Position numbers and translations under genes: made by a program. Positions 16,403 to 52,216 of a stretch of DNA of 64,000 nucleotides are shown here, in pieces (position 1 is the stretch's first letter; each line of letters opens with the position of its first letter). The DNA lies in contig NC_057767.1 in NCBI RefSeq assembly GCF_010389155.1, positions 26,237,723 through 26,301,722 of the forward strand, given 5' to 3'. Below the pieces are notes generated by a model. That model did not search any database. It was not told the DNA's origin and saw nothing but the letters and a program-made list of their open reading frames with translations. This stretch comes from Erigeron canadensis (Eukaryota > Streptophyta > Magnoliopsida > Asterales > Asteraceae).

Positions 16403-18531
16403 CTACATCCCTTGAGGCCTAATGCTATACAAATTAGAAATAGAGGCATTGGGATTAGAGGCTATCTGCTGGATATAGGGATAAGTAATGTTCCTTAACT
16501 CCTCCTCAGCATTGTCAATCCTCGCTTCTCTACCAAGGAGTTTCTCTCTATCTCTCCCAAGCGTAATTATCCCATCACGCTCCAGTCGAAGGGCAAGCAC
16601 GGCCCGAGCATCAGCACAATTAGCCTCGATCAACTCATCAAGGCTACGATCAAACTCAGGACTCGCCATCAGCATTCGGAAAATATCAGGAATAACACCA
16701 GAAATCAGTTGTCGGTTAGCATTCCTGGCATCCTCGAGCTCCGATTCTAACCTGTTGATCATACCAGCATGCCCAGCGAAAACAAGAGAGGCAATACGTT
16801 CATGAGCAACATCCAGACTCTAAGTAGCCTGAGATAGAGCCTCCTGCAATTCAGACAGCTCCCTCTGCAGAGACGCAACTGCTGTCGAAGCACCCAAGGA
16901 GGACGGAGCAGCCCTAAGGGAAACCAATTATGACCTATGCCTCTCCAAACTCTCTTCCAGATGGTGCATCCTGGCAGCAGCAGCAGAACTAATTATGCCA
17001 GCAGTCAACAAAGCTTGATTAGAAATCTCAGTAAGCCTCTGAACAGGCATGGTCTCCAATATGGTCCTCAAATGACCAGGGACCATCATATTTAGACTCT
17101 ACTGGCAAAGCTGAGGATCAGGTAGATCCCTAAGAAGAGAGATCCCTAAAACAAGTTCACGATTCGAAACAAATCAAGGGAGGAAAAGTGGGGGAAAAAA
17201 AAAGGAAGCCCACATATTATGGTAAATACCTGTTCCAGAAGAAGCTCCAACGATAGCTGTGGTAGCTCCGGTGGAAGTAGGCCTAACCAAGGAAGTCCCA
17301 ACGACAGTTGTGGTGGCTCTAGTTTCATCAACTGGCTCCTTCCTAGGCCTCCATCCAAGGTCAGATTTCTCAGCTACAAAAGGAAAAAAAGTACACCTCA
17401 GAAGCACATCAAAAAAAAAACAAAACAAACAAACAAACAAAGAAAGAGGGGGGGAAAGGAATCAAAGGTCAAACCTTGATCACCACCAGAAACTGGAAGA
17501 GTAACCGGTTGAGTCAACCTCATCCCTCGTAGGGGAATCCAAGATAATCACATGAGTCTCACTACCCACAACACCTTCTATAGCAGAACGGCCCTCACCA
17601 ATCCTTCGTGTTTTTGGAGGCGGCAGCTGCACACCACCAAACGAAGGTCCCTCACCATCAGAAGGAACCAAGGGCCTTTTGTCGACCACCATTCCCCGAG
17701 GATTCATAATAACAACATCTCTAAGAGTCAACTCTACAAACAACATATGAAAAGTATCAGATACAACCATTAGCCATTCGAAGAAAGCAGAACAAATAAG
17801 AAAGAAAGGAATGATATTACTTTCGCAACACCAGATCCGCACAGGCATATCCGGTGAACCTTCCCATGACAATGTAATCCCAGCAAGATATAGGATCACG
17901 GTGGGATATGCAATCAGAGAAAAGGGAGAGACAAGCACTTGGCGAATCAACACATTATCTAAAGAATGCCAAGCCAGATCACTATCCTCAAACGATACCC
18001 TCGGCACCAACCTATTTCTATCCAACACACCCCTGAACATTGGGTGAATATACTCCTCACTAAAAAAAATAAAAATCTTGGCCTCCAGTTCAGCATGTCA
18101 GAACCCCCTATATCAAAAAACAACCTATTGGGTCTCTCCTCCACCACAACCCACCCATCACGAACACACAACTTGAAAAAATATCTAAACAAACTTATCT
18201 GGGGCTCTATTTCAAATGCCCAACAAACAATGATAAAAGACACCATTACAATGATCGCTAATTGATGTACCATGGATACATGCAATTCATGATAATCGAG
18301 TAACCCTAATAACCAAGGGGATAGGGGAAACCTAAGATTACCCCCGGAAAAAGGAGCGGTGTACATACCTACGAAGCCAGGCGGCGCATCAAGAATGGAT
18401 TTTGACCGACCCGGAACCTTAATCTCCGGATCATTAGGGCGACAGGAACAGTGGTGGAACCAGGCAACATCATCCTCCGTCATATCTGAATTAATAGTAC
18501 TGATAATACAAAAATGATTGTGTTGATGCAC
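16403..18531 (-). pseudogene. Antisense ORF of Tat-like element B (putative gypsy-type transposon protein)
   Basis: Minus-strand frames 18531-17959, 18040-17480 and 16762-16403 follow one another. The first has PPGFVGMYTAPFSGGNLRFPL, SPWLLGLLDYHELHVSMVHQ, FKLCVRDGWVVVEERPN and a Trp-rich segment. This looks like the 'putative gypsy type transposon' domain (PF04195 style) found in antisense genes of Tat elements such as Grande. The last is a charged coiled coil (LESELEDARN, LERDGIITLGRDREKLLGREARID). A frameshift lies near 18040 in a run of A. The start codon is displaced: element A sits four codons after it, and the ATG is at 31351. Introns are possible around 17100-17480 but I could not find phase-consistent junctions. 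Confidence 0.65.
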
Positions 18532-19159
18532 GTTGATGTGACAACAACAACTTAGATTTGATATGTTGTTTAGATTAAGAGATTATGTTAATTTATGTCG
18601 TATCTATATATGTAATTGATAGATTATGGACTTTATGTTTTGGTAATGATCGATTACATATTTTGGTGTTATATATATGTTATGTATGATGTTTGTTGTG
18701 TGTTATACAGGTACAAACATAATATGTGTTAGGATTCCTTAAGATGAAACACTTAGGAATATAATCAAGTATTACATCTAGCGAAGATAAGGTATATCTT
18801 CGTTAGAGGCAAACGAAGATAAACTTCGTTTGGTACAAACGAAGATTAACTTTGTTACATGGGCTGGGCAGCTAAGTTCGTAAGAACATAGCCTAGCAAG
18901 CCCAGTTCGATCTGAAACATATATATACGAATGAATACCCTAAAATGAGGTATCATATTCGACATACACGTACTCCAGACCACTAAGTTCGTTCTATAGC
19001 TTATACAAACGAATATAGTATCATACGGCTGATTATCTACTTGATAATTAAGCGATATACACGTTAACTAATCAAACTAGTTATCTCGTGAGGATTCCGC
19101 ACTCACGACATAACAATAGACGATCTCGAGAGCGATCTGTAGCTATCGAGGGACTCACA
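18521..19159 (+). repeat. 5' LTR of element A (639 bp)
   Basis: TGTTGATGCA...GACTCACA. It carries paired CTTCGTT/AACGAAG motifs (18790-18860), a TATA-like ATATATATACG near 18918, and GGATTCCGCACT at 19092-19103. Its 3' partner is 30723-31338. Confidence 0.95.
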
Positions 19160-19161
19160 AG

Positions 19162-19174
19162 TGGTATCAGAGCC
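19162..19174 (+). other. Primer-binding site of element A
   Basis: TGGTATCAGAGCC, complementary to the 3' end of initiator methionine tRNA, two bases after the LTR. Confidence 0.93.
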
Positions 19175-19542
19175 AATCGATATCTTATCGAAGGTTCGAG
19201 ATCGTTTGTTTGATTATTTTCTCTCAAAACAACCTCCCGATACCCTAACTGTCGCTAAGTTCGTTTTCTCAAACGAATTTAGCAAACGAGCTTAATCTCA
19301 TCTTCGTTTCACTCTCTTCAAACGTATTTAGCTTTTTTTTCGTTAAGTTCCTTCAAACGAATTTAAAGTTATCTTCGTTCATTCTCACCTTACGAATTTA
19401 GCTTTATCTTCATTTCTTTCCTCAAGCGAAGTTAGACCTATCTTCGTTTCTTTCCTCAAACAAAGTTAGACCTATCTTCGTTTCTTTCCTTTAAACGAAC
19501 TTAATCCTATTTTCGTTAAGTTGCAAAAAACGAATTTAAACA
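19175..19542 (+). repeat. Gag leader with degenerate AACGAANTTAG repeats
   Basis: From about 19250 to the gag ATG a motif AACGAA(T/G/C)TTAG, or its inverse CTAAGTTCGT, recurs about ten times. Part of it sits in an approximate unit of 35-40 bp with CTATCTTCGTTTCTTTCCTC. The same motif fills the leader intron of the third gene (27140-27580) and appears in the LTR. Confidence 0.75.
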
Positions 19543-20502
19543 ATGGCTTCCTCGCCAACCAACACTGCTGTTGCACAATACCTAAATTCTCTTCTCTATC
19601 ATGATCATCTCGTTGGACGTACTAATTCTCCACCGAAGTTAGTTTCATTGGCTAACTTCTGGGCGTGGAGAGTCCGATTTGAAGATTATATTCAACGAGA
19701 AGATTTGAACATGTGGATTATGATCACTGAAGGATATGAATGGCCAACTCTTACTGTAAACAGTGTTACAACTAATTACAAGGTAGGAGAGTTAAAAGGC
19801 GAAGAAAAATCTTTGTATGCTGTTGAAGTTAAGGCTCTTTCTACTCTTCGAATGTGCATTCCTCAAGAATTAGTGCACCTGTTTCCTAAACAAGAGTACA
19901 AGACTTCAAAGCAATTGTTCGATGCTATTGAAGCTCACTGTGAAGGTGATCCATTATTGAAGCAAAATAGAATTAAGATGCTTAAGAAACAATTTGATTG
20001 CTTTAATGCTACCAAGAACGAACTAGTTGAGGATCTTATCTTGAGATTTCAACATCTTCTTGCTGAGTTAGCCTATTTTGATCTTAAGTATACTCCTACT
20101 GAGATAGTGGATAAATTCTTGGATGGTTTGCCGAAAGCTTATAAAGAGTTTCGTCATGGATTGCAAGAAAGAGCTGATTATGCATCTCTTCGTATCGATG
20201 GTGTTATATCCACATTAAGAAACAGAGAAATGAAGGATAAGGCGAAGGATCTCCAAGACAACTTCACACAAGATCCATCTCTCTATCATGCCACTATGAA
20301 AAATCCTACAACTGATGTTAATGCATTCTTTTCTGGGGTTGGTACTTCTGGCACGAAAGAAAGTTCTAATTGTGTTATGGATGGAGATGATTCTGCTGGT
20401 TTCATGGCTTCTGATGCTGGTTACAAGGCTCGAAAGACTAATGAGAATGCAAAGCCAGGAAATATGACGTTTGGTAACATTTCATCTACTTCCCATGGAT
20501 GA
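19543..20502 (+). CDS. gag: Gag of element A, capsid part (UBN2-type)
   Basis: 319 codons from ATG 19543 (MASSPTNTAVAQYL). FWAWRVRFEDYIQREDLNMW (residues about 43-62) and VEDLILRFQHLLAEL, with FLDGLPKAYKEFRHGL, match the UBN2/DUF4219-type copia gag capsid. The frame stops at 20502, but the zinc knuckle expected at the gag C terminus is in the next frame, which begins at 20499 with an ATGA overlap. Either a single-base indel near here broke one gag-pol frame, or a -1 shift is used. The translated protein would assemble the particle. Confidence 0.85.
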   Translation: MASSPTNTAVAQYLNSLLYHDHLVGRTNSPPKLVSLANFWAWRVRFEDYIQREDLNMWIMITEGYEWPTLTVNSVTTNYKVGELKGEEKSLYAVEVKALSTLRMCIPQELVHLFPKQEYKTSKQLFDAIEAHCEGDPLLKQNRIKMLKKQFDCFNATKNELVEDLILRFQHLLAELAYFDLKYTPTEIVDKFLDGLPKAYKEFRHGLQERADYASLRIDGVISTLRNREMKDKAKDLQDNFTQDPSLYHATMKNPTTDVNAFFSGVGTSGTKESSNCVMDGDDSAGFMASDAGYKARKTNENAKPGNMTFGNISSTSHG

Positions 20503-23500
20503 ATGTATTTGCCACAATGTGTGCTGCACATGAAGCTTTTGTTGCAGGACGGATCACAGATCCAGCACTCATTGATGAAGATTATGACCAAATAGATCCC
20601 GATGATGTTGAAGAAATGGATCTGAAATGGAATTTGGCGATGATCACCAGGAGAGTGCAACGGTTTATGCAACGAACAGGTAGACAGCTAATTGGGGGTA
20701 CTCAGGGCTTTGACAAGTCAAAGGTTAAGTGCTATAATTGCGATGGCTTTGGACATTTTGCCAAAGAATGTCAACGACCAAAGAGAGATGTCAATATTAC
20801 CCTTACCCGTCAAGATAGAGGTGGTAATCGTTCTTTTAATCCGAATGCAAGTAGAGCTCTCTTGTTGACTGATGATACTACTAGAAATGGCAATGACAAG
20901 GCTATCGTAGCTGCTCAACCTGATGGTTCTTATGTCTGGAATCTTCCACAGGATGAGACCAATAATGCTTATTTGGCCGAAATAGTTGATGATATGGCTC
21001 AGATGGTAGATTCTGTTGAGGATTTCTTGGACACCACAGTTTACCACAATGATGAGCATTTGTATGACAATGTTCAAAGCTCGAACTTAGAATCTTCTGC
21101 TCAGGTATATGACACTGATTCAGAGTCTGATGAAGAGGTTGAGGTTGATGACACGAAAGATTCTGGAGAGATGCACGCTGCTGAGAACAAAGACGATTCT
21201 GCTACTGAAAAGGTTGAAAAAACAATTGAAGAGCAGATGAAGGAATATGAAATTCCAACAGGCATGAGTGTGGATGACTTTGTCACTTACATGGCAGACT
21301 GCAAAGAAGCAGATCAACAGGTATCTTACTCTCTACATACTATTGTTCATGTTTGCAAAATTGTTAATCGAATGTTTGATGAAATTGAACAAAAGAATGA
21401 ACTAATTAAGCATTTAGAATCTGTTGTTAATGTTGCTCATGAAGAAAGAGATAAGTTGATTAAAAAAGATTTAACTGTCACTGATAGAGAAAAAATTTTA
21501 AAAGATAGGATTAAATCTTTAGAGTCTGACATTAGTGCTATGAAAGACAAAGTTAAACATGTTGTGGCTGTAGAAAGAGTAGGTGGTGAAGCTTATGCAT
21601 TGTTAGCTAAAAAGTGTGCTACCATTGAGAAAGAACTGGCTGATGCTAGAATAGAAATAGTGGAATTACAAGCTAAGGTTGATTCTGCTAGACATGATGA
21701 GCTTTTAATGCATATGAAAAAGTTTGAGGATTCTCCATCTAAGACTTCTGACACAGCTAAGGTTTCTTACAATAGCATGCCTCCTCCTTTCAACAATAAC
21801 TATACTCCTGTAGAACCCAATATTCCTGAAGTCCTACTTCAACCTAGTGTTGATGTTGGTAGATCGAAAGACTCGACTCCTACGCCTAATTTGACTGAGG
21901 AGACAGCAGAGTCTAAAGGAGTTTCTTCTCAACCTACCAAGGAAGAGAAATTGAAAGGTGTCGTCCTAGATTCGTCCACTTCTTATGGTCAGAAAGACAG
22001 TATTACTCACTTTACACTTCGTAAGAGTAGTAGGGTCTACACTGAGTTAGAATTTCCGTTATCATCTATTGACCCTGAGTTAGAACTTCCTATTACTTTC
22101 TGGGGAGAGGCAGTGAATACAGCTTGTCACATTCTGAATCAGGTTTTGACAGTTAAACGGTTTATGAAAACTAGTTATGAACTGTTGCACAACAAAAAGC
22201 CCAATTTGAAGAATGTTGAGCCTTTCGGTGTTCCTTGCACTTTTCTTAAAACTCTTCCTCAAAGGAAATTTGAACCTAAATCTGAGGAGGGTTTCTTTCT
22301 GGGTTATGTTCCAAGTACACCGATTAGGCGTGTGTACAATCAGAAAACTGGCAAAGTAGATCTTGGTACAAATGTCGTAATTGTCAGTCATAAACCTGTT
22401 GTACACATTGGTCCTGCTAATAATTTTGATTATGATGGTGTCTTCACTTCTTTTCGTGGTCCTGTTTCTTTTGCAGGTGTTCCAACTGTGGAGGATGTCG
22501 TTACTCTCCATGATCCTCTGGATGGTGGACCGGTTTCTGGTTCTTCTTCTATTTCCTCACCAATAGTTGAGCCTACTTCTGAATCTGGAGAATCTAGTGG
22601 GACAAAAGTAGCAGATTCTACCTTAGAGTCTGCTCCTATAGTTCCTACTGATCCTTTGCATGTACCTCTACCTGATTCTCCTTTCTATGATACTGATGAC
22701 ACGGAAGGTGAAACTCAGGAGGAGCCTCAAACTCCAGATTATAAAACTCCAGAGCAACATGTGCAGACGAATTTGGGAGATGATCTTTCAGTCGATAAGG
22801 TTCCTCAAACTAGGGTCAACAAGGATCATCAAGTCGAGCAAATCATTGGTGATGCTTCTACCTCTGTTCGTATGAGGAATCAATCTAAGAAACCGTCGTG
22901 TATGTTTGCTGAAGTTAAGGATACTGGGGCAATTACTTGGTACTTGTATTATTGTTTTATCTCTCAGGTTGAGCCTAAAAATGTTGGAATGGCTCTTAAG
23001 GAACCGTCATGGGTTGAGGCGATGCAAGAAGAATTGGCTCAGTTTCGAAAGCTTGAAGTATGGAAGTTAGTTGACTTACCTCCGGGTGAATCTCCTTTAA
23101 CAACGCGTTGGGTTTTTCGTTGTAAACGAGATGACAGAGGTGTAGTCATTCGAAATAAGGCTCGATTGGTGGTTAGAGGATTTGAGCAACAAGAAGGCTT
23201 TGATTACGATGAGACATTTGCACCTGTAGCTAGACTTGAAGCTATTCGATTATTTCTGGCATATGCTAGTTATAAAGGAATTAAGGTGTATCAGCTTGAT
23301 GTAAAGAGTGCCTTCTTGTATGGAGACATTAAAGAAGAAGTGTATGTAGAACAACCTGCCGGGTTTGAGGATCCAAACTTTCCTAATAGAGTATATCGTC
23401 TTGATAAGGCTTTATATGGTTTACATCAGGCTCCTCGATCGTGGTATGAAAAATTGTCAACTCATTTGAAGGAAAGTGGTTTTACCAGAGGTTCTATAGA

Positions 23501-23675
23501 CAGCACGTTGTTTATTAAATGGAAAGGGACGGACTACTTGCTTGTACAGGTTTACGTCGATGACATCATTTTTGGTTCATCTGATGACAAAATGTGCAAG
23601 GAATTTGAACAGAGCATGAAGGCTAAGTTTGAGATGAGTGCAATGGGGGAATTAACCTTCTTCCTTGGACTATAG
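20499..23675 (+). CDS. pol: Gag C terminus and Pol of element A, protease and integrase core deleted
   Basis: 1058 codons. CCHC knuckle CYNCDGFGHFAKEC at residues about 78-91, an acidic Ser/Asp-rich stretch, a long coiled coil (about 290-410), then a jump. After GVVLDSSTSYGQKD the chain passes directly into the C-terminal end of integrase (LPITFWGEAVNTACHILNQ at about 530, EEGFFLGYVP), with no HHCC site, no DNGTEF and no catalytic Glu. A short direct repeat (TGAGTTAGAANTTCC, near 22040 and 22076) marks the likely deletion joint. RT follows from about 840: RWVFRCKRD, VYQLDVKSAFLYGD, ALYGLHQAPRSWYE, QVYVDDIIFGSS. The frame ends with TAG at 23673 where related elements have CAG, so RNase H continues after it. 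Confidence 0.85.
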   Translation: MNVFATMCAAHEAFVAGRITDPALIDEDYDQIDPDDVEEMDLKWNLAMITRRVQRFMQRTGRQLIGGTQGFDKSKVKCYNCDGFGHFAKECQRPKRDVNITLTRQDRGGNRSFNPNASRALLLTDDTTRNGNDKAIVAAQPDGSYVWNLPQDETNNAYLAEIVDDMAQMVDSVEDFLDTTVYHNDEHLYDNVQSSNLESSAQVYDTDSESDEEVEVDDTKDSGEMHAAENKDDSATEKVEKTIEEQMKEYEIPTGMSVDDFVTYMADCKEADQQVSYSLHTIVHVCKIVNRMFDEIEQKNELIKHLESVVNVAHEERDKLIKKDLTVTDREKILKDRIKSLESDISAMKDKVKHVVAVERVGGEAYALLAKKCATIEKELADARIEIVELQAKVDSARHDELLMHMKKFEDSPSKTSDTAKVSYNSMPPPFNNNYTPVEPNIPEVLLQPSVDVGRSKDSTPTPNLTEETAESKGVSSQPTKEEKLKGVVLDSSTSYGQKDSITHFTLRKSSRVYTELEFPLSSIDPELELPITFWGEAVNTACHILNQVLTVKRFMKTSYELLHNKKPNLKNVEPFGVPCTFLKTLPQRKFEPKSEEGFFLGYVPSTPIRRVYNQKTGKVDLGTNVVIVSHKPVVHIGPANNFDYDGVFTSFRGPVSFAGVPTVEDVVTLHDPLDGGPVSGSSSISSPIVEPTSESGESSGTKVADSTLESAPIVPTDPLHVPLPDSPFYDTDDTEGETQEEPQTPDYKTPEQHVQTNLGDDLSVDKVPQTRVNKDHQVEQIIGDASTSVRMRNQSKKPSCMFAEVKDTGAITWYLYYCFISQVEPKNVGMALKEPSWVEAMQEELAQFRKLEVWKLVDLPPGESPLTTRWVFRCKRDDRGVVIRNKARLVVRGFEQQEGFDYDETFAPVARLEAIRLFLAYASYKGIKVYQLDVKSAFLYGDIKEEVYVEQPAGFEDPNFPNRVYRLDKALYGLHQAPRSWYEKLSTHLKESGFTRGSIDSTLFIKWKGTDYLLVQVYVDDIIFGSSDDKMCKEFEQSMKAKFEMSAMGELTFFLGL

Positions 23676-24500
23676 GTGGATCAACTGAAGGATGGCTTCT
23701 TTATACATCAAACCAAGTATGTCAAAGATCTTCTTACTAGGTTTCGAATGTCTGATGCTAAGGATGTTGTTACTCCCATTAAGACTAATCATGGGTTGTG
23801 TCCTGATAAGCCTAATGATCCATCCGTCGATGCCACTCAATATCGAGCTATCATTGGATCCTTGATGTATCTGACAGCCTCACGTCCAGATATTACCTTT
23901 GCTGTTTCTATGTGTGCTAGATATCAGGCTAATCCGAAAGAGTCTCACTTGAAAGCTGCAAAAAAAATTCTTCGTTATGTGAAAGCCAAGCCTCGTCTAG
24001 GTCTTTGGTATCCCATGTATGGTTTTTTTGACTTCGTAGCTTATACTGATTCGGATTATGGTGGTGACAACTCGGATAGGAAATCAACGTCAGGTGGATG
24101 TCAGCTTTTAGGGGGGAGAATTATATCGTGGCAGTGCAAAAAGCAGACATCTGTTGCACAGTCATCCTGTGAAGCAGAGTACATTGCTGCTGGATATTGC
24201 TGTTCTCAGGTGCTTTGGATACAGCAACAACTGCGCGATTATGGTATGAATATCTCCAATACTCCTATTTGTATTGATAATAAATCTGCCATAGATATTA
24301 CCAAGAATCCGAAAAACTTTAAAGTCACCAAGCACATAGATATAAAGTATCATTTCATACGTAACTATTTTGAGAAAAAGCTTATTCATTTAGAAAAGGT
24401 TATTACTGATGATAATCTTGCTGCTCTATACACTAAAGCTTTTGATAGACCTCGTCTTGAGTTGTTATTTCAACTCAATGGTATGAAGAATGCCGAGTAG
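23676..24500 (+). CDS. pol: RT end and RNase H of element A pol
   Basis: Same frame as the preceding pol, separated from it only by the TAG at 23673-23675, so it is the C-terminal part of one polyprotein. It opens with VDQLKDGFFIHQTKYVKDLL, then YLTASRPDITFAVSMCARYQ. The copia RNase H follows with catalytic acids in YTDSDYGGD, SSCEAEYIAAG and CIDNKSAIDI, then HIDIKYHFIRNYF. The family's ADIFTKP motif is changed to AALYTKAF. The natural end is TAG at 24498 (NGMKNAE). RNase H removes template RNA during reverse transcription. Confidence 0.87.
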   Translation: MDQLKDGFFIHQTKYVKDLLTRFRMSDAKDVVTPIKTNHGLCPDKPNDPSVDATQYRAIIGSLMYLTASRPDITFAVSMCARYQANPKESHLKAAKKILRYVKAKPRLGLWYPMYGFFDFVAYTDSDYGGDNSDRKSTSGGCQLLGGRIISWQCKKQTSVAQSSCEAEYIAAGYCCSQVLWIQQQLRDYGMNISNTPICIDNKSAIDITKNPKNFKVTKHIDIKYHFIRNYFEKKLIHLEKVITDDNLAALYTKAFDRPRLELLFQLNGMKNAE

Positions 24501-26769
24501 TGTCTCTCAAAGAACTTAAATTTAATTTTCGTGTCTTTGTAGTGTAAGTCGTACATAGATAGAGTCATAAAAAATACAAAAAAAAGTTGTCTTAGTATAA
24601 GTTTGTATATATCTAGTGTCAGAAAAAATACAAAAAAACATTGAAAAATTGAAAATCCAAAAAAAAAAAAAAAAAAAAAATGAATCAAGTAAGGTTACTG
24701 CGCTAAATGATGAGAAGTGACGATACTTTAGCTTTTAAGCCTGCTTAATCGTAATATAACTGATTAGTTCAGTGATTACAATTTGGGATATATCGGTAGA
24801 CACAAAGTACCAAGGTTTAATGTTCTTGTGGGAAACATATTCAGATATATGGCTGAGATTGCTTGCTTTTCAGTAATGAATTGATCTAGTCCTTAAATTT
24901 TGTGAAAGATTTAGCATTACTATAAGATTTGTTCAATGAATAGGCAAGAACCTCTACCAATCATGAGCATAAAAGTAAATATGATATTGTTATGCAAATC
25001 AATTGAATGCAAATTAAGGGGCTAATGTGGTCTTTGAGATTCGGACAAGTATGTCCTCGGGGTGTCTTTGTATACCTAGCCTACCTAAAGCTTACAACTT
25101 GGGATAGGTTGTCGGAAAGTTCGCTACATGGATCTCATAGAAAATCACGGGTTCCTTATACATCATGAAATGCAGAAGCAAATATGTGAAATCACAAAGT
25201 AATTCAATTCAGTTATCCACAAAGTGTCTTATGATTGGTTAAGGATGTTCTTGAATATATTGAATATTTTTTATCTTAGTGCTTGTATCGATTACGAAAA
25301 TATATCTGAATGTGGGTTACATAAGTTCTTAAACTATCCAATGGCATATTAGGCTACTCGGGTTACATGGTGACTCTCCTTGGCCAGGGTATGTCGAAAG
25401 TGTCATAACACAAAGGAAACTGGACGTACCGAGTGTTTAAGAGGACAAACATACCGGTAATCGGTGTTGGGTCACGGTTCAAAACTTATAATAAGAGAAT
25501 TATTTCTCACCCGCAGGCTTATGTAACATGCTAAACTGATCTAATCAGCAGTAATCATGCTTAATGTGAATAATGTATAAAGTCAAGTTAATTAAAATTT
25601 AGATTAGTTTATTATTCTGCAATTTTTATTCTGTGTTATTTTTCTTTTTATTGAGTCAAAATAGTATTTTTATAAGTTCTTATTGCACGAGAGACCCTAT
25701 TCAAATTCTAGTATATGTTTTGCTGAATTCCTTCATGTGAATTTTTAATGAGGTTGTGTGGTTTGTTTACAAAGAAGATTTTCTAATATGGACATTAATT
25801 TGTTTAAAGTTTAGAAAATGATCTTTTCAAGTGTTATGTGAAATGTCAAAGTTATTTGAAATCTCACAATTTTCACTTGTCACCAAGTTATTAATCGGGT
25901 TTGTTTAAGTTTGTGTGGTGACATTTAGGGTTTGACAAGAAATGACCTCCCTTGATTAGTTATTTCATATTTGTTAACCCTGATTGAGTGTGATTGTAAC
26001 TTGAATTTTCTGCATTATACTGTTTTGTTCTCAATGCGTTGATGAGTTCTATGGTAAGTGTGCAGTGTTCAGGTTAAGAAGATAACGTTGGAGTGCTGAT
26101 TTCTGTTACTACATTGTTATTTACACGGATGATATCATGACGATAAGATCCTTGGTGTATAGTGATAATATTTGTGATGCAGATTTGAGCATGTGAATGA
26201 TGAATACATGAACTTGTTTTTGGAATAGTTATTTATTTATGATTCATGTATTTAATGAAAATAATCAAATTTGATATTAGTTTCTTTTGAATTTCATACT
26301 GTAATTTATGACATCCTTTTGGAAACTTTACTAAGTTCTTCAGTGAATTTTTGTTGGATTGTTCATTGTTTGTTAGTTTTGTAGACGGCATCTAGTATGG
26401 GACTTAAGTGTTTCAAGATGGTTTGCCGTCATGCATATCTATGATCAAAGGAAGTTCTCGGTGTCATAATCATTATTGGTAATGAGGTTCATATTTAAAT
26501 TGATTATTTTCAGGTTTGTTTATGGATAGTGTTTAAACCATGGGTTTTCATTCAAGATTATAATGTTCGGTTATCTACTTACATTATGATTATGAATTTG
26601 GGTGATAAGCACGTTTTTAGTACAAGGCATGAACAGGTTGCTTTCTAACGAGTTTTTGCCATGTACAGATTGTAATTAAGGGTTGTGTTTTGGAAGATTG
26701 CTTGGATGAAAATCTGAAAATTTTTCAGAAACTTGCTGAAATCTGGAATATTTTCTGATTTTGATTTGT
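24501..26769 (+). other. Spacer between pol and the third gene of element A
   Basis: 2.2 kb with no frame of note on either strand. It starts with A-rich sequence that ends in an uninterrupted run of about 22 A (24659-24680). The rest is AT-rich with no recognisable domain. A long non-coding block here separates gag-pol from a downstream promoter and supports separate expression of the third gene. Confidence 0.65.
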
Positions 26770-27032
26770 TCTTACGAAGATAATTGTTATCTTCGTTCGA
26801 AACAATTTTGTTCAAACGAAGGATATCTTCGTTTGGCTAACTTCGTTTGTGAAGTTTAGCCCGACCCATAGTTGGCCCATTGTTATTTCTATATATAAAG
26901 GGGTTTTTCTTCGTTACTTCTTCATAAAACGAAAATTACTCTCATTTTCGAGCAAAACCCTAAAACCCAAACTCTTTTCTTTTCTCTCAATCTAATTCGT
27001 TTGCTTGATTCGTTGTGCAAACTGTGATCTAA
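26770..27032 (+). promoter_or_regulatory. Internal promoter and first (non-coding) exon of the element A third gene
   Basis: Three CTTCGTT/AACGAAG inverted motifs (26774-26860) of the same type as in the LTR U3 are followed by a TATA box CTATATATAAAGGGG (about 26890-26904). Starting about 30 bp later, a CT-rich transcript leader with no AUG runs to a perfect donor GTAAGT at 27033. The layout is that of an ordinary plant Pol II promoter and first exon. Confidence 0.65.
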
Positions 27033-27634
27033 GTAAGTGTTTGATGTTATTTTCATTCACGAAAATGATCTAGGTTTTCTATGTATCTTCGATTTGATTC
27101 ATTTTGATTCTATATATCTATATTTTGAAATCATTAACTGGTTTATTCAAACGAAGTTAGACTTGTACAAACGAACTTAGACTTTCGTTCAAAACGAATT
27201 TAGATTTGTGAACATGGACTTAAATTTTGGATTGAACGAATTTACCTTTGGTAGAAACGAAGTTAACTTTAGATGATGCCTTACGAACTTAGACTTTAGT
27301 TGATAAGAAACGAACTTAGCAAGGTTTAACACCCTTAGTTTTATCTAAACAAACTTAGACTTCGTTTATAAGTTACGAACTTAGAAGATAAGTTATAACT
27401 TACGAACTTGCATGTACAGTTTAGACCTTACGAACTTAAACTTCGTTAGGTGAAAACTTAAGTTTAGTTCTTACGAAGTTAAGATTTATTTTCGTTTCGT
27501 TCTTGCTTACGAATTTAGGTTCTATCTTCGTTTCTGTATACTTAACGAATTTAATGCTTAATTTCGTTCAGTTTGAAAATTTTGTGCAGTTTTACTTTGC
27601 GACATTATTGATTAGGTTTTTCAATTTTGTGCAG
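27033..27634 (+). other. Predicted 5'-leader intron (602 bp) of the element A third gene
   Basis: Donor AA|GTAAGTGTTT at 27033, acceptor TTTTTCAATTTTGTGCAG at 27634, two bases before the start codon. It is T-rich throughout. About sixteen copies of AACGAANTTAG or its inverse lie at 27140-27580. Long leader introns next to the start codon often raise expression in plants, and the motif array may be such an element (inference). Confidence 0.6.
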
Positions 27635-27636
27635 AA

Positions 27637-29377
27637 ATGGCTCTTGCTCCTCGTCAGTTTGTGAAGAAGCATAATCTTGCACTGAATCTTGATCCAGATC
27701 AGCATAATTGCGAACATTTTCATGAAATGTTTAACTACATTGCTCGCTCGCGATTATCTTTTGCTTTTTGTGACTCGCCGAGACTTGTTAGGCAGTATAT
27801 CGATTCTTTCTGGTCCACTGCTCATGAAGTCATGGTTGATGGACAGAGTTTTGTACGAGCTACTGTTGAAGGCATCACTTTTGATTTCAATGCTGAATCG
27901 CTTCGTACTATTTTGCATCTAGGAGCAGAACCGGACGTAGAAGAAGAGGAAGACGTCGAGATGACTTACGAGTTTGAACTGCTTCTTCGCTGCTGTCAGC
28001 GAATGGGATTTGTTGGACAGGTCAAACTTCCTTTTGACAAAAGTGGTTTTCGAGGACGATGGCGTTATTTGGCGTATGCATTGCTCGTCTGTTTGAGCAA
28101 TCGCAATGCTTTGGTATATAATCGACCTTATCCTTTCTCCCGATACTTTTATCAAGAGTTTATTGATCAGATTAATGCTAAGGGGAGAAAGCGATTTCTT
28201 TTGTATCCTCGCTTTGTGATGGCTATAGTTAGACATTTTTGTCCTGACTTAGTATATGACCAAGGTCCTCGCTACGTTCTTCATGCTTGGCCTTCGCGTC
28301 TTTTTGCTGATCTTGAAGCCAATACGAGTAATGTGGCTGGTCTTCATGATCCACCACTTTTTGGTCACCTGATTAATCCAAACTATCGATCTCGTCTTGA
28401 GAATGATATGTTTGTGGATGATGTTGATGCCGATTCTGATTCTGGTACTTCTGAAAGTTCAGTTGATGGTTCAGATGATGATTCAAGGGATGAGTCTGAT
28501 GGTTCGGATGATGGAAATGATGGAGATGATGTTGATAGTTCCGATGGTTCTGCTGCTACACATGAAACAGACACAGATGATTCTGCTGCTGCTGAACGTC
28601 GAACTAAGATGATTCACGATATCTCGGCTGTTTCTGAAAGCAATCATTCGCATCAGTCGTTTGATCAAGAGGGTGTTGTGTTTCATAGAGAGCGTAGAAG
28701 CAAGGCTTGTCACGCTGTTCCCGCTCTTTCAGATTCAGCTAACTCCATTCCTGCTGCTGAGATTGATCCTGATGTTGCAGCTCAGCATGATTCTGAATTG
28801 CGTGAGATCTTTGAAGATATGGAAGATCCGGTGAACAGAGCAAGTTCGGTTAGTCCAGTGAAGCGACAAGGGGGTGTTGAACTTCAATATACCAGAATTA
28901 AGCGTCGACGTGTTGTTGAAGCTTCTTCTGTAGCAATGTCTGATCCTCCAAGACCAACTGCTGCTGTTGTTCCTGTTGTTTCACAAGCACCAGCCTTACG
29001 TCCTCTAGTGGCTCCTTCTTTATCTTATCGACTTCCTTCCGATTCGTCGCTTGGTCGTCGTGTTGATCTTTTGGAGACTAGAGTTCGCACTTTGGAGTCT
29101 GATCTCACTGATACTCGCGCCACCTTAACTTTTTTGATCAACTGGGTCAAGAATCAAGGGGGAGAAGTTCCTGAAGAGATTTGTAGATTGTCAGCGGTTC
29201 AACCAAGACGTCAGAATGACGATGATGATGCTGATAATGCTGGTGATAGGAATGTTTCTCGCCCAGTTGAAGATAAAGGAAAGGGTGCTAAGATCGAGGG
29301 GGAGACAGGAGGTGATACTTCTGCTGTTGGTGCTTCTGGTACTGGTGCGGGTCCTTCTGGTGCTCCTCGTGATTCAG
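27637..29377 (+). CDS. Third gene of element A, first coding exon (envelope-like position)
   Basis: Starts MALAPRQFVKKHNLAL directly after a splice acceptor. Residues about 25-230 form a globular part: FHEMFNYIARSRLSFAFCDSPRLVRQYIDSFWSTAHEV, VEGITFDFNAESLRTILHLG, RWRYLAYALLVCLSNRNALVYNRP, RFLLYPRFVMAIVRHFCPDL. The order and spacing resemble the third ORF of E and D (YLLEFWYTAEV, GTVKCVLTLDGFREAL, HIAFPRFLSVCF), so I take them as one family. Then an Asp/Ser-rich acidic stretch (about 265-325), a basic KRRRVVE, a coiled coil (RVDLLETRVRTLESDLTDTRATL, about 470-495) and a Gly-rich tail. Left unspliced, the frame reaches TAA at 29385. Spliced at 29377 it continues in phase at 29566. Function unknown. 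There is no clear signal peptide. Confidence 0.75.
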
Positions 29378-29565
29378 GTTTCTAATTTTGATTATGATAA
29401 AGATTTTTAGATAGAATGTATAATTGATTGTGTGTAATAAGTTATGAAATTTTGTGTAATGAAAATGTAATATATCTTATTTCAATACAAGTACATTTCA
29501 TCTTTATTATAATTGTCATGATTATTCTTTCTATTCTGGTGTTCATTTTGTGTAAATTTAAATAG
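29378..29565 (+). other. Predicted coding intron (188 bp) of the element A third gene
   Basis: Donor CAG|GTTTCT, acceptor AAATAG, AT-rich between, with stops in every frame. Removal joins G (29377) to AT (29566-29567) as an Asp codon and brings the downstream frame, which lacks its own ATG for about 50 codons, into phase. It also removes the TAA at 29383-29385. Confidence 0.65.
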
Positions 29566-30671
29566 ATGATCCAGATTATACAGATTTATTCTTTGATGGT
29601 GATGAGCTCGAGGAAGGCGAATTTGTTCCTGAACCAAATCTAGACATATTCAAGAAACCTTATGGGTTTGATGAAGTATGGAACTCAATTCCTGAAGATC
29701 CATCGATTGAAGAGAATAGAGTGTTGGATCAGAAAAGATCAGATGTTCGGGAAAGAATGCTTCAAGTTCCATTCAGTAGCCAAACTCAAGTTCTACATTT
29801 TGTTGTGTATGCTAAGAATGGTGACGTATTGATTCCATCTGATTATGAGATTAATGTGACAAGACCATTCAATCCAAATGATTTTCTAGTTCCTCTCAGA
29901 GATGATGATTCATTACATATGGTTGATCGACATGTTCCCGAGAAAAGAGTTAATGAATGGATAGTACATAGGGAAACATGGAAACCAAATCTGTATTGGA
30001 CTCATTTTTCAAACAAAGATGCTGCAAAGTACAAGACAATCATCTGGAGTTGGTTTTATGATGATGAACTGAAGTTATTTGTTCTTAAAAGACCAGAAGG
30101 TTGTCAGTACTTAGCGTGGTGTGAGAGACATTTCAGGAGTTTGTGTGAAGAAGATTTACATGAGCTTGGAAATAACTGGATTATCAATCCAAGCGATGAT
30201 GGCTTAGCTGATGTTGTTGGTAAGAATCTCAGAAATGATTTCTGGTTGAGAAAGAATATGAAAGATTCAGATAAACCACAGTTTAAGATTGAGCCAAGAT
30301 CGAAGAAAAGAGTGGTCAAACCAGATAAAACAGTTGAGTATGTTCAACATGATATTAAATGTATGATCAAAGTCCCTGCCAAGAAATGGTCACAAGATGT
30401 CTTGGACAAGATGGATAATTGGGAAATTGATCAAAATTCTGGTGAAGCCAAGATGTATGCAGACTCAAAGAAGAAGATTTTGTTGAGAAGAGTTTATGAT
30501 CCGATGCAGCTGGTGAACTTCTCAAGAAATGATCTGAGAAAGTTATACGGTACGGAGTGTTCGTTCTTGCCATTTTGGAAGCATGAAGAAAGTCGATATC
30601 GTAAGATACTTCAACTCTGCTTACATGAAGAGATTCATGCAAATAGCAAAAGATTGTTGTTTGATGAATGA
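29566..30671 (+). CDS. Third gene of element A, last exon
   Basis: The frame is open from 29566 to TGA at 30669-30671 (about 368 codons) but has no ATG for its first 50 codons. That fits an internal exon fused to the preceding one. It begins with an acidic stretch (DPDYTDLFFDGDELEEGEF) and continues with a Trp/Tyr-rich domain: LHFVVYAKNGDVLIPSDYE, WIVHRETWKPNLYWTHFSN, YKTIIWSWFYDDELKLFVLKR, YLAWCERHFRSLCEEDLHEL, then a basic segment (EPRSKKRVVKPDKTVEYV) and LVNFSRNDLRKLYG. The stop lies 40 bp before the polypurine tract, so the gene fills the element's 3' end. With exon 1 the protein is 948 aa. No match to a known enzyme is recognised. Confidence 0.72.
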
Positions 30672-30710
30672 TCAGATTTTGAAGACTAAAGAAATCGAAG
30701 GTTCTGCTGT

Positions 30711-30722
30711 CAAGGGGGAGTT
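30711..30722 (+). other. Polypurine tract of element A
   Basis: CAAGGGGGAGTT lies immediately upstream of the 3' LTR and would prime plus-strand synthesis. Confidence 0.88.
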
Positions 30723-31338
30723 TGTTGATGCACGTTGATGTGACAACAGCAACTTAGATTTGATATGTTGTTTAGATTAAGACATTGTGTTAATTTATGT
30801 CGTATCTATATATGTAATTGATAGATTATGGACTTTATGTTTTGGTAATGATCGATTACATGTTTTGGTGTTATATATATGTTATGTATGATGTTTGTTG
30901 TGTGTTACAAACATAATATGTGTTAGGATTCCTTAAGATGAAACACTTAGGAATATAATCAAGTATTACATCTAGCGAAGATAAGGTATATCTTCGTTAG
31001 AGGCAAACGAAGATAAACTTCGTTTTAACTTCGTTACATGGGCTGGGCAGATAAGTTCGTAAGAACAAAGCCCAGCAAGCCCAGTTCGATCTGAAACATA
31101 TATATACGAATGAATACCCTAAAATGAGGTATCATATTCGACATACACGTACTCCAGACCACTAAGTTCGTTCTATAGCTTATAGAAACGAATATAGTAT
31201 CATACGGCTGATTATCTACTTGATAATTAAGCGATATACACGTTAACTAATCAAACTAGTTATCTCGTGAGGATTCCGCACTCACGACATAACAATAGAC
31301 GATCTCGAGAGCGATCTATAGCTATCGAGGGACTCACA
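30723..31338 (+). repeat. 3' LTR of element A (616 bp)
   Basis: Aligns with 18521-19159 except for two deletions (8 and 15 bp) and about ten substitutions. It ends GACTCACA and is followed by the duplication GATTG. Confidence 0.95.
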
Positions 31339-36900: not shown

Positions 36901-37904
36901 GAGGTTGTGACTGGGAGGTTGAGGCTGGTTTGGGTTTAACCAACCTCAATAGTTTGACACCAGGTGCACCGGTGGGTCTCGCATTCTTTTGCGACTCGCC
37001 CAGTGAGCTTTCTGAGCCAGCCGGTCGTGCTATATCAGTTTTAGTGAATACCTGAAGCATGGCAGCAGAAAGTTCATGTTCTGGATCAGATGTAGAAAGC
37101 CTTGATAGATCCATGCAGAACTCTGTGGCTAACTGCTCTGGTCCCCCCTTCAGAATATGCGTCTCCTAGAATATGCATAAAGCAGACGCTCAGAAATCTG
37201 GGAAATGAGATATGTGGACTTCTCTTTCCTTTCAATTTAGCCACCAGCTGAGAGAAAAGCATCTCAGCATAGTCCACAGTGATCCCATTCCATAAATAAT
37301 AACCCATCTCCACTTGGATCAATGAGATCTGGTCCAAGCCACCATAATTACCACCCAGGCATTCAATTATGTGAGTCCAGAAAAACCTCCAACAATTTCT
37401 AAACCCCGAGATGAAAATATTCCCTGAAGTTTTCAAATTTCCTTCACTATCAACCATATTGTCATGTCCCATTTCCACCAATACTTCTCTAAAGTTTATA
37501 CCTTTTAACCTTTTTGCAAAGGCAGCAGATTCATGCAAGTAATTCAAATGGAGAGCCTCTTTGAATCCATCCAAATTGTGCCATCCTTGAGAATGAAAGC
37601 AATGGATTTATCATCCTTGCTTACTTCGGCTGTGTATCAGAATTCTAAAAGATATCTATGGAAAAGAATCTCTGGATCTACAGTCAAGGCAAAAGAAAAA
37701 GGACATTCCTCAAGAAATTTATTGATAAGACCCATGAGAGTTTTATTTCTGGCATTGAGGGCGGCTTTAAAATTGTTCATATTGAATCGAATGGCCTTGG
37801 CTTCAAACTTCTCTGGCCAATTTGAACTAGCCTTGACTGCAGGCTTTGGAGGATTATATTCGAAACTAATGAGAGATTTTGCTTGGGATGGTTATTTTGC
37901 CATA
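33930..37904 (-). pseudogene. Third ORF (envelope-like position) of element D, interrupted
   Basis: About 1,325 codons from the ATG near 37904 to the stop at 33930. The longest open piece is 35297-33930 (455 codons), collinear with the C-terminal part of the E copy and ending KRKAVDAPESSRAAKK. Others are 35537-35307 (coiled coil), 36175-35564, 36674-36348, 37114-36839 and 37574-37086 (GGLDQISLI, FPRFLSVCFMHILGDAY). Breaks include a TAA at codon 4, CAG to TAG near 35306 and several frameshifts. The frame has no introns, unlike the third gene of A. Whether the protein is structural, an envelope analogue or an accessory factor cannot be told from sequence. Confidence 0.75.
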
Positions 37905-38583
37905 ATGATTTGATTTTGGAAAAATGAAGATGAAAAGAATGTGATTTAAGGTTTGAGTGTTTGAAGGAATAGAGAATGAGAGGAAAAGAATGATTGGGAA
38001 GTAAATGAAAAATGAAGTAAATGTGAGAATGACTTTTGGAAAGAGAATTTATATTTTCAAAGGGAATACGAAAGGATTTCCAAGGAAAATAAAATAAAAA
38101 GAATTTTGAAATTCAAACCCAATTAAAAGAAATAATATTTTATTAAAAGGTAAATTTTATCGGGTTTGAAATCCGAAATAATTTTTGGTTACACGTCCGC
38201 ATTTAATGCAACAACGGTCATGACCCCATATTTTCCAAAAGTATTCAACCGTTTTTAATGCAAAAGCAATGATCATTTTTCTTTACGGCGCAAGTGGTAT
38301 GACACGTAAGCAAAAAGGTATCTTTGTACAATAAAATCACGTGTCCACTTGCAAACCAGATATCTCTTATAAAATAAAAGGTTCTGATTGACTTCAGATT
38401 TGATTTATTTAATTCTAAGAGAGGTTTAGTAAGTGCAATCTGAACCGTCTCATTTTCTAGAGTTCTGAAGTCTTCTCAGATTCTAAGCCATTTCAGACAA
38501 AATATTTTCTGAGGCAAAAATTCCCCCTCAGAGAAAAATTTCCTTTATTTGTAACAATATTTTTGTCAATTCCCCCTAAAATG
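37905..38583 (-). promoter_or_regulatory. Promoter-like spacer upstream of the D third ORF
   Basis: On the minus strand: G-box core CACGTG (38338-38343), a TATA-like stretch AAAATATAAAT (about 38047-38057), then a CT-rich leader to the start at 37904. This matches the E spacer in order and spacing. There is no frame inside. Confidence 0.55.
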
Positions 38584-45658: not shown

Positions 45659-46938
45659 TGAATTTCGCGAAACTAAATCCGTTCCCATCCGAACCAACCC
45701 TGAAACTCAAACACCGATAGACATGGAAATGGTTGAAGCTACTAGAGCACGAAGGAACTCAGAGAACTCAGAGGAGAAGAAAGGAACCAATGTCAAGGAA
45801 GCCATAAGTCACTTCGAACGTTACCCAACGGATGCCGGCCCTAGGCCTAACCCGTACTCCTCACCCTAGTTCCTAGGCCGAGTCCGGCTGAAGACTCGTT
45901 AAACTTAGGGCTTCTTGGGAGGCAACCCAAGCCGTATTTTATTTTTATTTTTATTTTCACTTTCATTTTTATTTTTATTTTTCTTTTTTAGGAACTATGT
46001 AACTAATTACAACTAAGTGATTGTTTTGAATATTATCTTTTGTGATATTTGTGATATTCTATGAGCATGTTATAAGTATCACAGATTCAAGCTTTCAACG
46101 GATCAAGGAAACAAGTAACTTATCGCAATCGTATTTTGTTTTTATTTTTATGTTTTAGCTTGTTATTTTCCATTTTGATATTTTGATTGAAGTGTGCAGG
46201 AGTATTTTGCTTCGTAGTCTGAAGAAAACCATGCACTTGGCCAAAAGCAAAGTGTGGGGGAGTTCGAGCATCAACCCGCTTAATAAATAAGACCTCGGAA
46301 CACGTACATGAGTCACAAGCGCCGCTAAAGGACCTCCAGCGCCGTTGGGAATGCATCGGGGCACTCCCAGCGCCGCTCACTGAAGACCAGCGCCACTCCT
46401 GGTTCCAGCCAGCGTCACTACCTACTCACCAGCGCCGCTCCCAACTCTATTCTGCACACCAGATCGCCAAAAAACCAAAAAAAATCAGAAAAACCCGAAA
46501 ATCCAAAAAAAAAATTAAAAAAATCGAAAAATACCAAAAAGAAAAGAAGGTGGATACGCTTCCATGGATCGCCATCAAATAGAGACGACGTAAGTCATTG
46601 AAGATTCTACATCATTCAAGTCGCTCCGCAAATGTCATCTTCAACAACAATCATGCAACTTAAGACCCGGGAAGTTTCGTTAATCCTGTTACTCTTTAAT
46701 TTTACGTATTTTTCCTATTTGCCTTAGTTTCTATGTCTAGTACAACGAGTGCGTTGTACAACTTAAGTGTGGGGGGATGGAATAGAAAAAACCCTAGATC
46801 TAATTGTTTGATTTAACTCAAGTTTTCTACTACTTATTTCATGCAAATTTTAAGTTTTTATGTGTCTGAAAACTATTTTGAGAATATAAACTTTGAAAGT
46901 ATACAAAAATCACGATAACTAAGCAATATGATTCTCTC
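45659..46938 (+). other. 3' remainder of element C after pol
   Basis: No long frame. It contains a short Glu/Lys-rich remnant (45720-45868), then the hairpin CTTGGGAGGCAACCCAAG (45914-45931) typical of Athila/Tat elements after pol. A run of TTTTATTT repeats follows (45939-45987). AGTGTGGGGGAG lies at about 46249-46260, GC-rich hairpin motifs at 46317-46440, and a polypurine tract AAGTGTGGGGGGATGG at 46763-46778. A 3' LTR could begin near 46775, but the matching 5' LTR start is outside the window, so this is not proven. Confidence 0.6.
46317..46440 (+). repeat. GC-rich hairpin motif cluster in element C
   Basis: Six copies of (C)CAGCGCCGC or close variants within 124 bp, several with CCAGC...GCTGG or GTTGG pairing. 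The same motif occurs in the 5' leader (11331, 11500, 11519) and at 12749, so it brackets the element. Confidence 0.7.
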
Positions 46939-47554
46939 TTAAAAAAGTTTAAGCTCGACAACATTTGTCCCTGGTGGAAGGGGTCCTAAACTTTTTGACC
47001 ACGATATTGACCAAGATGAAAAGTGGGTCCCACGACCACAACAAAAAGATGGAAAAGAAAATAGAAAATATTTTGGCTTCGACTTTTGCGAAGTTGCAGC
47101 CACATATTTTTCATTTTTTTTAAAATAAATTCAAAAAGTATTTGGTCAAGACTTTTGCCACCAAATGTCGTCTAAAAATATTTTCAATTTTAAAAAAAAA
47201 GAATTAAATTTGGAAAGTATTAATCCATTTTAGTTATATTGGCTCGTATATTTAAATTTACTTGCTTCGCACATGATACATTATATATATTTGATATTGA
47301 ATTGTCTCAACATGATTCATGGTTATGATTTTAAATTTAAAAAAATAAAAGATACCTTTAATAATTAAGGTTCATTTGTCTTGTGAGATTTTATTAAACA
47401 ATAACAATACCTTGTTAAATAAATAACTGAATAAAATCTTTCCAAAAATAGGATCGCCTTTTTCTATACAATGAAAACAAAAACAACATTAGTTTATATA
47501 AAATAATACCTTGTCATATTCAGATTTGTTAGTTAAAACATAACACCAACTACT

Positions 47555-47774
47555 GCCAATGAGGTCAGTCCAACGGGTCAGAGGCACTCTTGGGTAAATG
47601 TTTTACCCAAGGTCCTGAGTTCAATCCTTAGAGAGGGCAAAACCTTGGGGTTTTTTCTCTGAATACTTGTAATAGCACATGGTCAACATCTCGTTGTCTA
47701 TGGTACATGCAAGGCTTCACCATTATACAGTAAGGTTTTCCGATGTCGTATGCCGACTGGATGTTCGGAAAAAA
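47555..47774 (+). mobile_element. tRNA-derived SINE, array unit 1
   Basis: About 220 bp. A-box-like GTCAGTCCAACGGGTCAGAGG near the start and B-box-like GAGTTCAATCC about 45 bp on. Ends in GTTCGG plus A-run. Flanked by ACCAACTACT (47545-47554 and 47775-47784). Confidence 0.8.
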
Positions 47775-48987
47775 ACCAACTACTAGTCTACTACTATTCT
47801 CTCTTTAATCATCATCCCATATTATATAATAATAATAATAATTAGAAGTCTCGAAATAGAAATAAAATGTTCGATTCTTAATTTTTATGTACTGCTCGTT
47901 CTTTTTTGCAACAATCTTTCTACCTTAAGTAATTCTGAGACTGTTTATCTCTTAAGACTTCATACACCATTAAAAAGTATGAGGCGGTCTACATCTTACT
48001 TCTTCATATATCATTAAAAAACCAAATTTAATTACGTTTCATAATCAGTAAAAAATAAGAAGTTAATATTAGGTTTTATTCTAATTTTTCTTATATACAC
48101 TAAAAAGTTACCAATAAATTAGTTTTTCCAATCACTCAAAAGGAACTTCTTTACTCCTTGTTTGATTCTTCTGACCAATCTTCATAAAAAAAAACACTAA
48201 AATGGCGAGATCGCCATAATTTGCTACTTTTGTAACATGTTCGATCTTTACCTTTTGAGTGAAAGCAAAACTGTTCGATATTCTTGAATATTACTTCTTG
48301 TATTACTTCCGATAGATACTTACTGCATACACCACATGAAAAGTGGATTTTGGCCACGACAAAAGTCTTCTTAAAAAAGTTTAAGTTCGACAACATCTGT
48401 CCCTAGTAGAAGGGGTCCTAAACTTTTTGACCACGATATTGACCAAGATGAAAAGTGGGTCCCACGACCGCAACAAAAAGATGGAAAAGAAAATCGAAAA
48501 TCTTTCGGCTTCGACTTTTGCGACCAAAAAGTTGCGGCCACATGTTTTTCGTTTTTTTTAAATAAATTCAAATAATATTTGGTCACTACTTTTGCCACAA
48601 AATGTCGTCTCAAAATATTTTCAATATTAAAAAAAAGAATTAAATTTGGAAAATATTTATCCATTTCAGTTATATTGGCTCGTATATTTAAATTTACTTG
48701 CTTCGCACATGATACATTATATATAATTTGATATTGAATTGTCTCAGCATGATTATGGTTATGATTTTAAATTTAAAAAAATAAAAGATACCTTTAATAA
48801 TTAGGGTTCATTTGTCTTGTAATATTTTATTAAACAATAACAATACCTTATTAAACAAATAACTAAATAAAATCTTTCCAGATATCGGATCGCCTTTTTC
48901 TATACAAGGAAAACAAAAACATTAGTTTATATAAAATAATACCTTGTCATATTCAGATTTGTTAGTCAATAAATAACACCAACTACT

Positions 48988-52117: not shown

Positions 52118-52216
52118 ACACCAACTACTAGTCTACTACTATTCTCTCTTTAATCATAATCCTATATTATTATTATTATCATTATTATTATCATCATTAT
52201 TATTATTATTATTATA

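Follow-up and report, generated by a model that had tools for sequence, protein, structure and literature searches.

The third gene of element A

Element A is a Ty1/copia long terminal repeat (LTR) retrotransposon inserted on the plus strand of a 64,000-nucleotide stretch of Erigeron canadensis DNA (contig NC_057767.1, positions 26,237,723 to 26,301,722), which we call the window and number from its first nucleotide. Between pol and the 3' LTR, this element carries a third gene formed by open reading frame 3 (ORF3). We consider it likely that ORF3 is a gene with two coding exons that has its own promoter within the element, and that both a leader intron (intron 1) and a second intron in the coding region (intron 2) are removed by splicing. 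The features concerned, with the evidence for each in brackets, are as follows.

26770 to 26925, plus strand: putative internal promoter with ACGAAGATA / TATCTTCGT repeats, GCCCA at 26875 and TATATATAAA at 26890 (LTR similarity; TATATAA conservation)
26926 (start approximate) to 27032, plus strand: putative 5' untranslated exon with AAACCCTA at 26955 and no ATG (leader sequence)
27033 to 27634, plus strand: putative leader intron 1, GTAAGT ... TTTTGTGCAG (site conservation; shared-indel pattern)
27637 to 29377, plus strand: ORF3 coding exon 1, 580 codons plus one base (open frame, codon bias, indels)
29378 to 29565, plus strand: coding intron 2, phase 1, 188 nucleotides, with an in-frame TAA at 29383 (seven natural copies without exactly this stretch)
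29566 to 30671, plus strand: ORF3 coding exon 2 with stop codon (open frame, codon-position diversity)

These signals lie where a preliminary description of this DNA had placed them. The donor GTAAGT begins at 27033, and the acceptor TTTTGTGCAG ends at 27634, two bases before the ATG at 27637. The TATA box is also present, as TATATATAAA at 26890-26899, and its extent differs from the 26890-26904 originally given. Removal of the proposed second intron does join the flanking frames in phase and drops the in-frame TAA, giving a phase 1 junction, and the downstream frame, open from 29562 to the stop ending at 30671, indeed has no methionine among its first 63 residues. The composition of 29378-29565 is 80% A+T (47% T), versus 56% A+T for exon 1.

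Taken by itself, the evidence of this single sequence for introns in ORF3 is weak. The in-phase join was rejected as stand-alone evidence because 68 of the 151 GT-AG pairs in the tested area do likewise. Donor strength, scored over the 802 GTs of element A as matches to nine positions of a consensus, was rejected as well since the scores are ordinary: donor 1 has 7 matches, as do 15 other sites, with one more site reaching 8, and donor 2 has 6. Because the single-sequence signals are near chance, comparison with other copies is needed. Such comparison, chiefly with seven copies that lack exactly 29378-29565, lifts the observation far above chance.

Natural copies spliced at intron 2

Copies were sought in the same genome, a 426-Mb assembly. 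A pattern made from the exon edges, with 0-8 bases allowed between them, matches six places, all of which have exactly the predicted junction 29377/29566, and the reversed pattern used as a control matches none. These six are a lower bound for spliced copies. A seventh, L074, has flanks unlike the pattern, and its alignment takes in exon 1 up to the final base and exon 2 from the very first base on. The second intron originally proposed at 29378-29565 is thus borne out by seven natural copies that lack exactly that interval. L058 and L059 align up to the end of exon 1 and then straight to exon 2 (the last exon 1 base differs in L058), and L058 has an open frame of 1051 residues. The exact intact donor 2 occurs at 265 places in the genome.

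Site conservation was assessed in 49 aligned copies, with counts taken over those covering each site. The GT of donor 2 is kept in 46 of 46 copies and the AG of acceptor 2 in all 44; in one more copy a deletion spans the site. Ordinary coding sequence at the intron positions, which the preliminary description had named as speaking against its proposal, is not seen in any of the 49.

The spliced copies fall into two groups. L058-L060 form one group in a tree of 51 of 56 rows, from which five rows were omitted for gaps; L061 was among those dropped for coverage and is 1.9-2.7% from this group over its covered part. L062 and L063 adjoin the intron-containing copies L048, L053 and L054, and are 15-17% apart from L058-L060 as measured on the tree rows. 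A second tree holds 21 chosen loci of 76 fetched (L061 was dropped for gaps, and L074 is not labelled there as intron-free). In this tree, the intron-containing copies L070-L073, L075 and L076 mix with L058-L060 and L074, with weak support for the inner branches. Since each of the two spliced groups has intron-containing relatives, intron 2 was precisely lost on two or more occasions, unless recombination passed the spliced state between copies.

In four of the spliced copies (L058, L059, L062 and L063) the flanking sequences were checked. All four have intron 1 and promoter sequence upstream, and all have a 3' LTR after a short tail 3' of exon 2. The linker that precedes the promoter region is present in L058, L062 and L063, and the piece of L059 starts within the promoter region. 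The retention of intron 1 and the 3' LTR shows that the RNA that was copied had been driven by the LTR and spliced at intron 2, not at intron 1. We regard it as good as proven by these genomic copies that intron 2 is a working spliceosomal intron, and that spliced RNA has been reverse-transcribed and reinserted.

Related proteins agree with this. P0002 is 95% identical to L058 and P0001 is 97% identical to L062, and both end at the donor codon. P0007, a distant relative of 960 amino acids, matches the exon 1 piece (29% over 266 amino acids, E 2e-30) and also the exon 2 piece in the same frame (33% over 207 amino acids, E 2e-25), with the stretch between them unaligned.

Coding nature of the exons

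Codon-position bias is present in both exons. The diversity count covers the window and 24 copies of intact length, 15 of 39 copies having been left out as shortened or interrupted. For the three codon positions, exon 1 has values of 3.3, 3.7 and 6.0%, exon 2 has values of 2.7, 1.9 and 4.8%, and the corresponding values for the same triplets in intron 1 are 6.0, 6.6 and 5.4%. Indels were counted only in copies covering at least half of the region, and those present in at least three of 55 copies are called shared here. Of the shared indels, 12 of 14 in exon 1 have a length divisible by three, versus 1 of 15 in intron 1 (Fisher p 2e-5). The three-copy threshold was chosen after a first, weaker count. 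Exon 2 is stop-free in 86 of the 111 scored copies, which are the best 111 of 1522 candidates.

Two further observations concern this region. The window copy is without 45 bases in exon 1 (near 28104) that 50 of 55 copies carry. The diversity of intron 2 is lower than that of third codon positions, also when A/T and G/C sites are taken separately (1.65 versus 3.7-3.9% and 4.6 versus 6.9-11.4%), so that it remains low after control for base composition.

Putative leader intron and internal promoter

Comparison of copies makes both the leader intron at 27033-27634 and the internal promoter probable. The donor 1 sequence GTAAGT is kept in 41 of 42 covering copies, the AG of acceptor 1 in 46 of 46 and TATATAA in 42 of 42. 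A start codon was located in 37 of 54 rows (window included) and CAG stands at an equal distance from the ATG in all 37; the search expression did not locate the start codon in the other 17. No ATG stands between the TATA box and the donor in the window, nor in 40 of the 43 further rows that were measured. Eight ATGs lie within intron 1 of the window. A sigma-70 promoter scan was set aside, as it is not designed for plants. The window copy is about 50 bases shorter before acceptor 1 (27580-27634) than the other 36 located copies.

Architecture of element A and possible origin of the putative promoter module

The remaining features of element A are as follows.

18521 to 19158, plus strand: 5' LTR, preceded by the target-site duplication (TSD) GATTG; 10 mismatches in 615 aligned positions versus the 3' LTR
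from 19162, plus strand: sequence resembling a primer-binding site (PBS), TGGTATCAGAGC
19159 to 19542, plus strand: gag leader with ACGAAnTTA / TTCGT repeats, similar to intron 1
19543 to 24500, plus strand: gag and frame-broken pol (Retrotran_gag_2, zf-CCHC, SH3_retrovirus, RVT_2)
24501 to 26769, plus strand: linker from pol to the ORF3 promoter region, without LTR similarity (four control comparisons at shuffle level)
30672 to 30722, plus strand: 3' untranslated stretch with the polypurine tract AAGGGGGAG adjoining the 3' LTR
30723 to 31338, plus strand: 3' LTR, with the TSD GATTG after it

With a copia-type reverse transcriptase and gag (RVT_2 E 3e-70 and Retrotran_gag_2 E 1e-9 in Pfam), two LTRs and a TSD, element A is a Ty1/copia LTR retrotransposon. 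The PBS-like sequence is one that we take to be of the Met-tRNA type. An additional sense ORF downstream of pol and ahead of the 3' LTR, here 27637-30671, is a trait of the SIRE lineage, and we label the family SIRE-like Ty1/copia. Pfam finds no recognisable integrase core in pol (20499-24500) and pol is split at 23675/23676. Thus, this copy is probably not autonomous.

The region upstream of ORF3 resembles the start of the element in several respects. The motifs ACGAA/TTCGT, counted per 500-bp segment, number 8, 18 and 5 in 26501-28000 and 7, 11 and 7 in the segments over the LTRs and the gag leader; elsewhere in the element the count is 0-2 (once 4). Alignment of the LTR with the ORF3 promoter region scores 57-60, versus 27-30 +- 4-6 for shuffles made by first-order resampling, and the four controls taken from the linker score no better than shuffles. 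For the gag leader against intron 1, the local score is 126, compared with 38 +- 6 for 200 shuffles, and blastn aligns 19427-19528 with 27474-27579 at E 9e-12. ACCCTAA is present four times on the plus strand of element A, once in each LTR, once in the gag leader and once in the leader of ORF3. Clusters of repeated motifs occur in the LTR and upstream of ORF3; their palindromy was assessed by visual inspection only, and the boxes of element A lack the CGG-CCG core of published Sirevirus boxes. The simplest reading of these likenesses may be a duplicated LTR-leader module, or the shared expansion of one repeat.

Elsewhere in the window, a unit of about 1.45 kb is present four times, head to tail, at 46933-52202, and there are overlapping shorter direct repeats, minisatellite-like, at 52480-53012.

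Proposed expression mode and alternatives

In the mechanism that we propose, ORF3 would normally be expressed from the internal promoter, whose boxes, GCCCA, TATA and ACCCTAA resemble those of the element's own LTR. A short 5' exon would be spliced over the leader intron with its likeness to the gag leader, which would drop the eight upstream ATGs and bring the splice junction to within two bases of the start codon. With intron 2 removed too, the frames would read as one protein of about 950 residues. The whole module may stem from duplication of the region from LTR to gag leader. In addition, as the natural copies show, some LTR-driven RNA is spliced at intron 2 and has at times been reverse-transcribed and reinserted. 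A more far-reaching possibility, for which we see even chances, is that a copia element rebuilt its LTR and gag leader as a second internal transcription module. Perhaps ORF3 is then made mainly from a short, separately controlled spliced mRNA and cannot be made from unspliced genomic RNA, and leaky splicing with reverse transcription repeatedly yields intron-free elements.

Several observations weigh against this mechanism. No copy lacking intron 1 was found in the genome with the one exact pattern that was used, and all four checked spliced copies retain intron 1, LTR-driven RNA being not visibly spliced there. Diversity is 4.9% in the promoter and 5.7% in the 5' exon versus 6.0% in intron 1, which makes the promoter hardly more conserved. 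The copies are closely related, so the conservation of sites is in part a matter of shared ancestry. Frame-breaking shared indels number five in the exons: two lie in exon 1, and the other three, each of one base, are all that exon 2 has. Single-copy indels have little bias, with multiples of three making up 22 of 83 (exon 1), 5 of 36 (exon 2) and 9 of 61 (intron 1), and the first count, made without the threshold, gave 34 of 111 events for exon 1 and 14 of 98 for intron 1. The ordinary donor scores given above add to these points, and the start site, the splicing of intron 1 and the internal promoter are all predictions. The original claim of an independent promoter and leader intron is thus favoured by conserved sites, the indel pattern and the likeness to the LTR and gag leader, but the search for copies without intron 1, made with one exact pattern, gave none.

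An unlikely alternative is a retrovirus-like arrangement of the kind predicted for Bagy-2 and Athila env, in which RNA started in the LTR is spliced from a donor near gag to the ORF3 acceptor, intron 2 is also removed, and the TATA box at 26890 is idle. The spliced copies show that LTR-driven RNA is spliced at intron 2, an acceptor two bases before the ATG suits either route, and donor 2 shows that a site with 6 of 9 matches can work, while a 7/9 site is available at 19783 inside gag. However, there is no donor above 6/9 in 18930-19542. Moreover, the presence of GTAAGT soon after a TATA box, together with the ATG-free stretch, would need some other cause, and the LTR-like motifs upstream of ORF3 are left unexplained.

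It is quite improbable that intron 2 is real and the leader is a long unspliced 5' region, with ORF3 translated from full-length RNA by internal initiation or reinitiation. The failure to find a copy without intron 1, the retention of this intron in the four checked spliced copies and its resemblance to the gag leader all agree with such an arrangement, but the near-complete conservation of GTAAGT and the acceptor AG does not, nor do the eight ATGs between donor and start codon. An arrangement of two genes, in which exon 1 ends at the TAA at 29383 and a spacer separates it from exon 2 as a second cistron, the intron-free copies being deletions, has next to no chance of being correct, because even though the stop is kept (TTTCTAA in 44 of 46 covering copies) and P0001 and P0002 end there, seven copies with identical GT-AG edges in two lineages are unexpected for random deletion, exon 2 is without an early ATG, and P0007 carries both halves as one protein.

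A spliced ORF3 gene with an internal promoter is therefore the reading that we retain. The preliminary description had this unit operate instead of the stop-codon suppression reported for SIRE1, and this 'instead' is too strong, since LTR-driven RNA was also spliced at intron 2 in the ancestry of the four checked copies.

The ORF3 protein

Neither piece of ORF3 has a match in Pfam. No transmembrane segment was found in ORF3, where the top 19-residue hydropathy is 1.23 in the exon 1 piece and 0.78 in the exon 2 piece. With no membrane-type hydrophobic stretch, 'envelope' is merely a label for ORF3, and a membrane envelope role of the predicted protein is not supported. The predicted structure has a mean predicted local distance difference test score of 32 for the exon 1 piece and of 60, which is weak, for the exon 2 piece, and the model of the latter matches nothing in the PDB at E <= 0.001. 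Searching solved structures by sequence yielded four hits, the best at E 0.036, and no relatives were found in viral and prokaryotic contig collections.

P0001 and P0002 have a hydrophobic N-terminus, in which FAEM precedes ALAPRQ, as the TTTTGCAGAAATG of the copies would encode. This N-terminus looks like the translated end of intron 1. With intron-blind gene calling, such a hydrophobic start could pass as a signal or membrane segment. Intron-blind gene finders also split the ORF3 gene in two (P0002 and P0008), and the protein has probably been missed or mislabelled elsewhere.

Relation to known elements and significance

Element A and the Sireviruses are alike in having a copia reverse transcriptase, an extra sense ORF from pol to the 3' LTR, a repeated motif clustered both in the LTR and upstream of that ORF and, presumably, a Met-type PBS. 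They differ in that the boxes of element A are ACGAAG/CTTCGT and not of the CGG-CCG type, and in that its ORF3 has a coding intron that is as good as proven, a probable leader intron and no transmembrane segment. Repeated boxes have been described in the LTR and upstream of env in nine env-containing Sireviruses, and 12 of 13 published boxes have the CGG-CCG core (PMC2829016). The same paper, crediting Peterson-Burch and Voytas 2002, states that Sirevirus env may use an internal promoter and that none has been conclusively identified. Stop suppression and an internal promoter are the mechanisms named for the third gene in PMC3414828, and an extra ORF is reported in 74% of SIRE elements (PMC6317226). 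The word 'intron' is absent from the main text of PMC2829016 and PMC3414828, and the titles and abstract openings that were searched, with most subscription journals outside reach, hold no report of an intron in a Sirevirus third gene. Judged by this literature, what appears to be new is the pair of introns, the naturally occurring spliced copies and the module resembling LTR and leader, whereas the idea of an internal promoter has already been published (PMC2829016).

SIRE1 of soybean is similarly a copia element with an ORF after pol. In SIRE1, env is reported to follow directly after the pol stop and to be expressed by stop suppression, whereas about 3.1 kb separates the end of the pol frame of element A (24500) from the ORF3 ATG (27637), and the contrast originally drawn with the SIRE1 mode of expression is right. 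Ogre belongs to another superfamily and its intron is located elsewhere in the element than in element A. Nevertheless, this Ty3/gypsy element is alike in being a plant LTR element with a functional intron, and Ogre and EVADE are named as notable intron-containing examples (PMC12786077).

Splicing serves the third gene in the Ty3/gypsy elements Bagy-2 and Athila as well, where acceptors for env-like mRNAs have been predicted (PMC2829016); element A differs by a small intron inside the third gene and by a likely internal promoter. Partly spliced copia RNAs are known from BARE1, Drosophila copia and EVADE (PMC3735527, PMC12786077), but in these elements splicing favours Gag. Amplification from barley DNA did not yield copies derived from spliced BARE RNA (PMC3735527), whereas spliced genomic copies exist for the element A family.

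The window also contains elements B and C of another copia family, which have a TATA-like box, a pyrimidine-rich leader and AAACCYTAA before the third gene (minus strand, 37860-38090 and 3770-4000). No A+T-rich intron is seen when B and C are compared at the equivalent coding place, and LTR similarity upstream of their ORF3 is not above shuffles.

Third-gene expression in plant copia elements has been an open matter apart from SIRE1, and in the family described here there is now a specific candidate for the promoter, a defined start region and a pair of introns, the first of them probable. It has hundreds of copies, as judged by the 265 exact donors, and the splicing of one of its introns is recorded in the genome. 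Although no such event was detected for BARE, the natural spliced copies show that the genomic RNA of a plant LTR element, once spliced, can be reverse-transcribed and integrated again.

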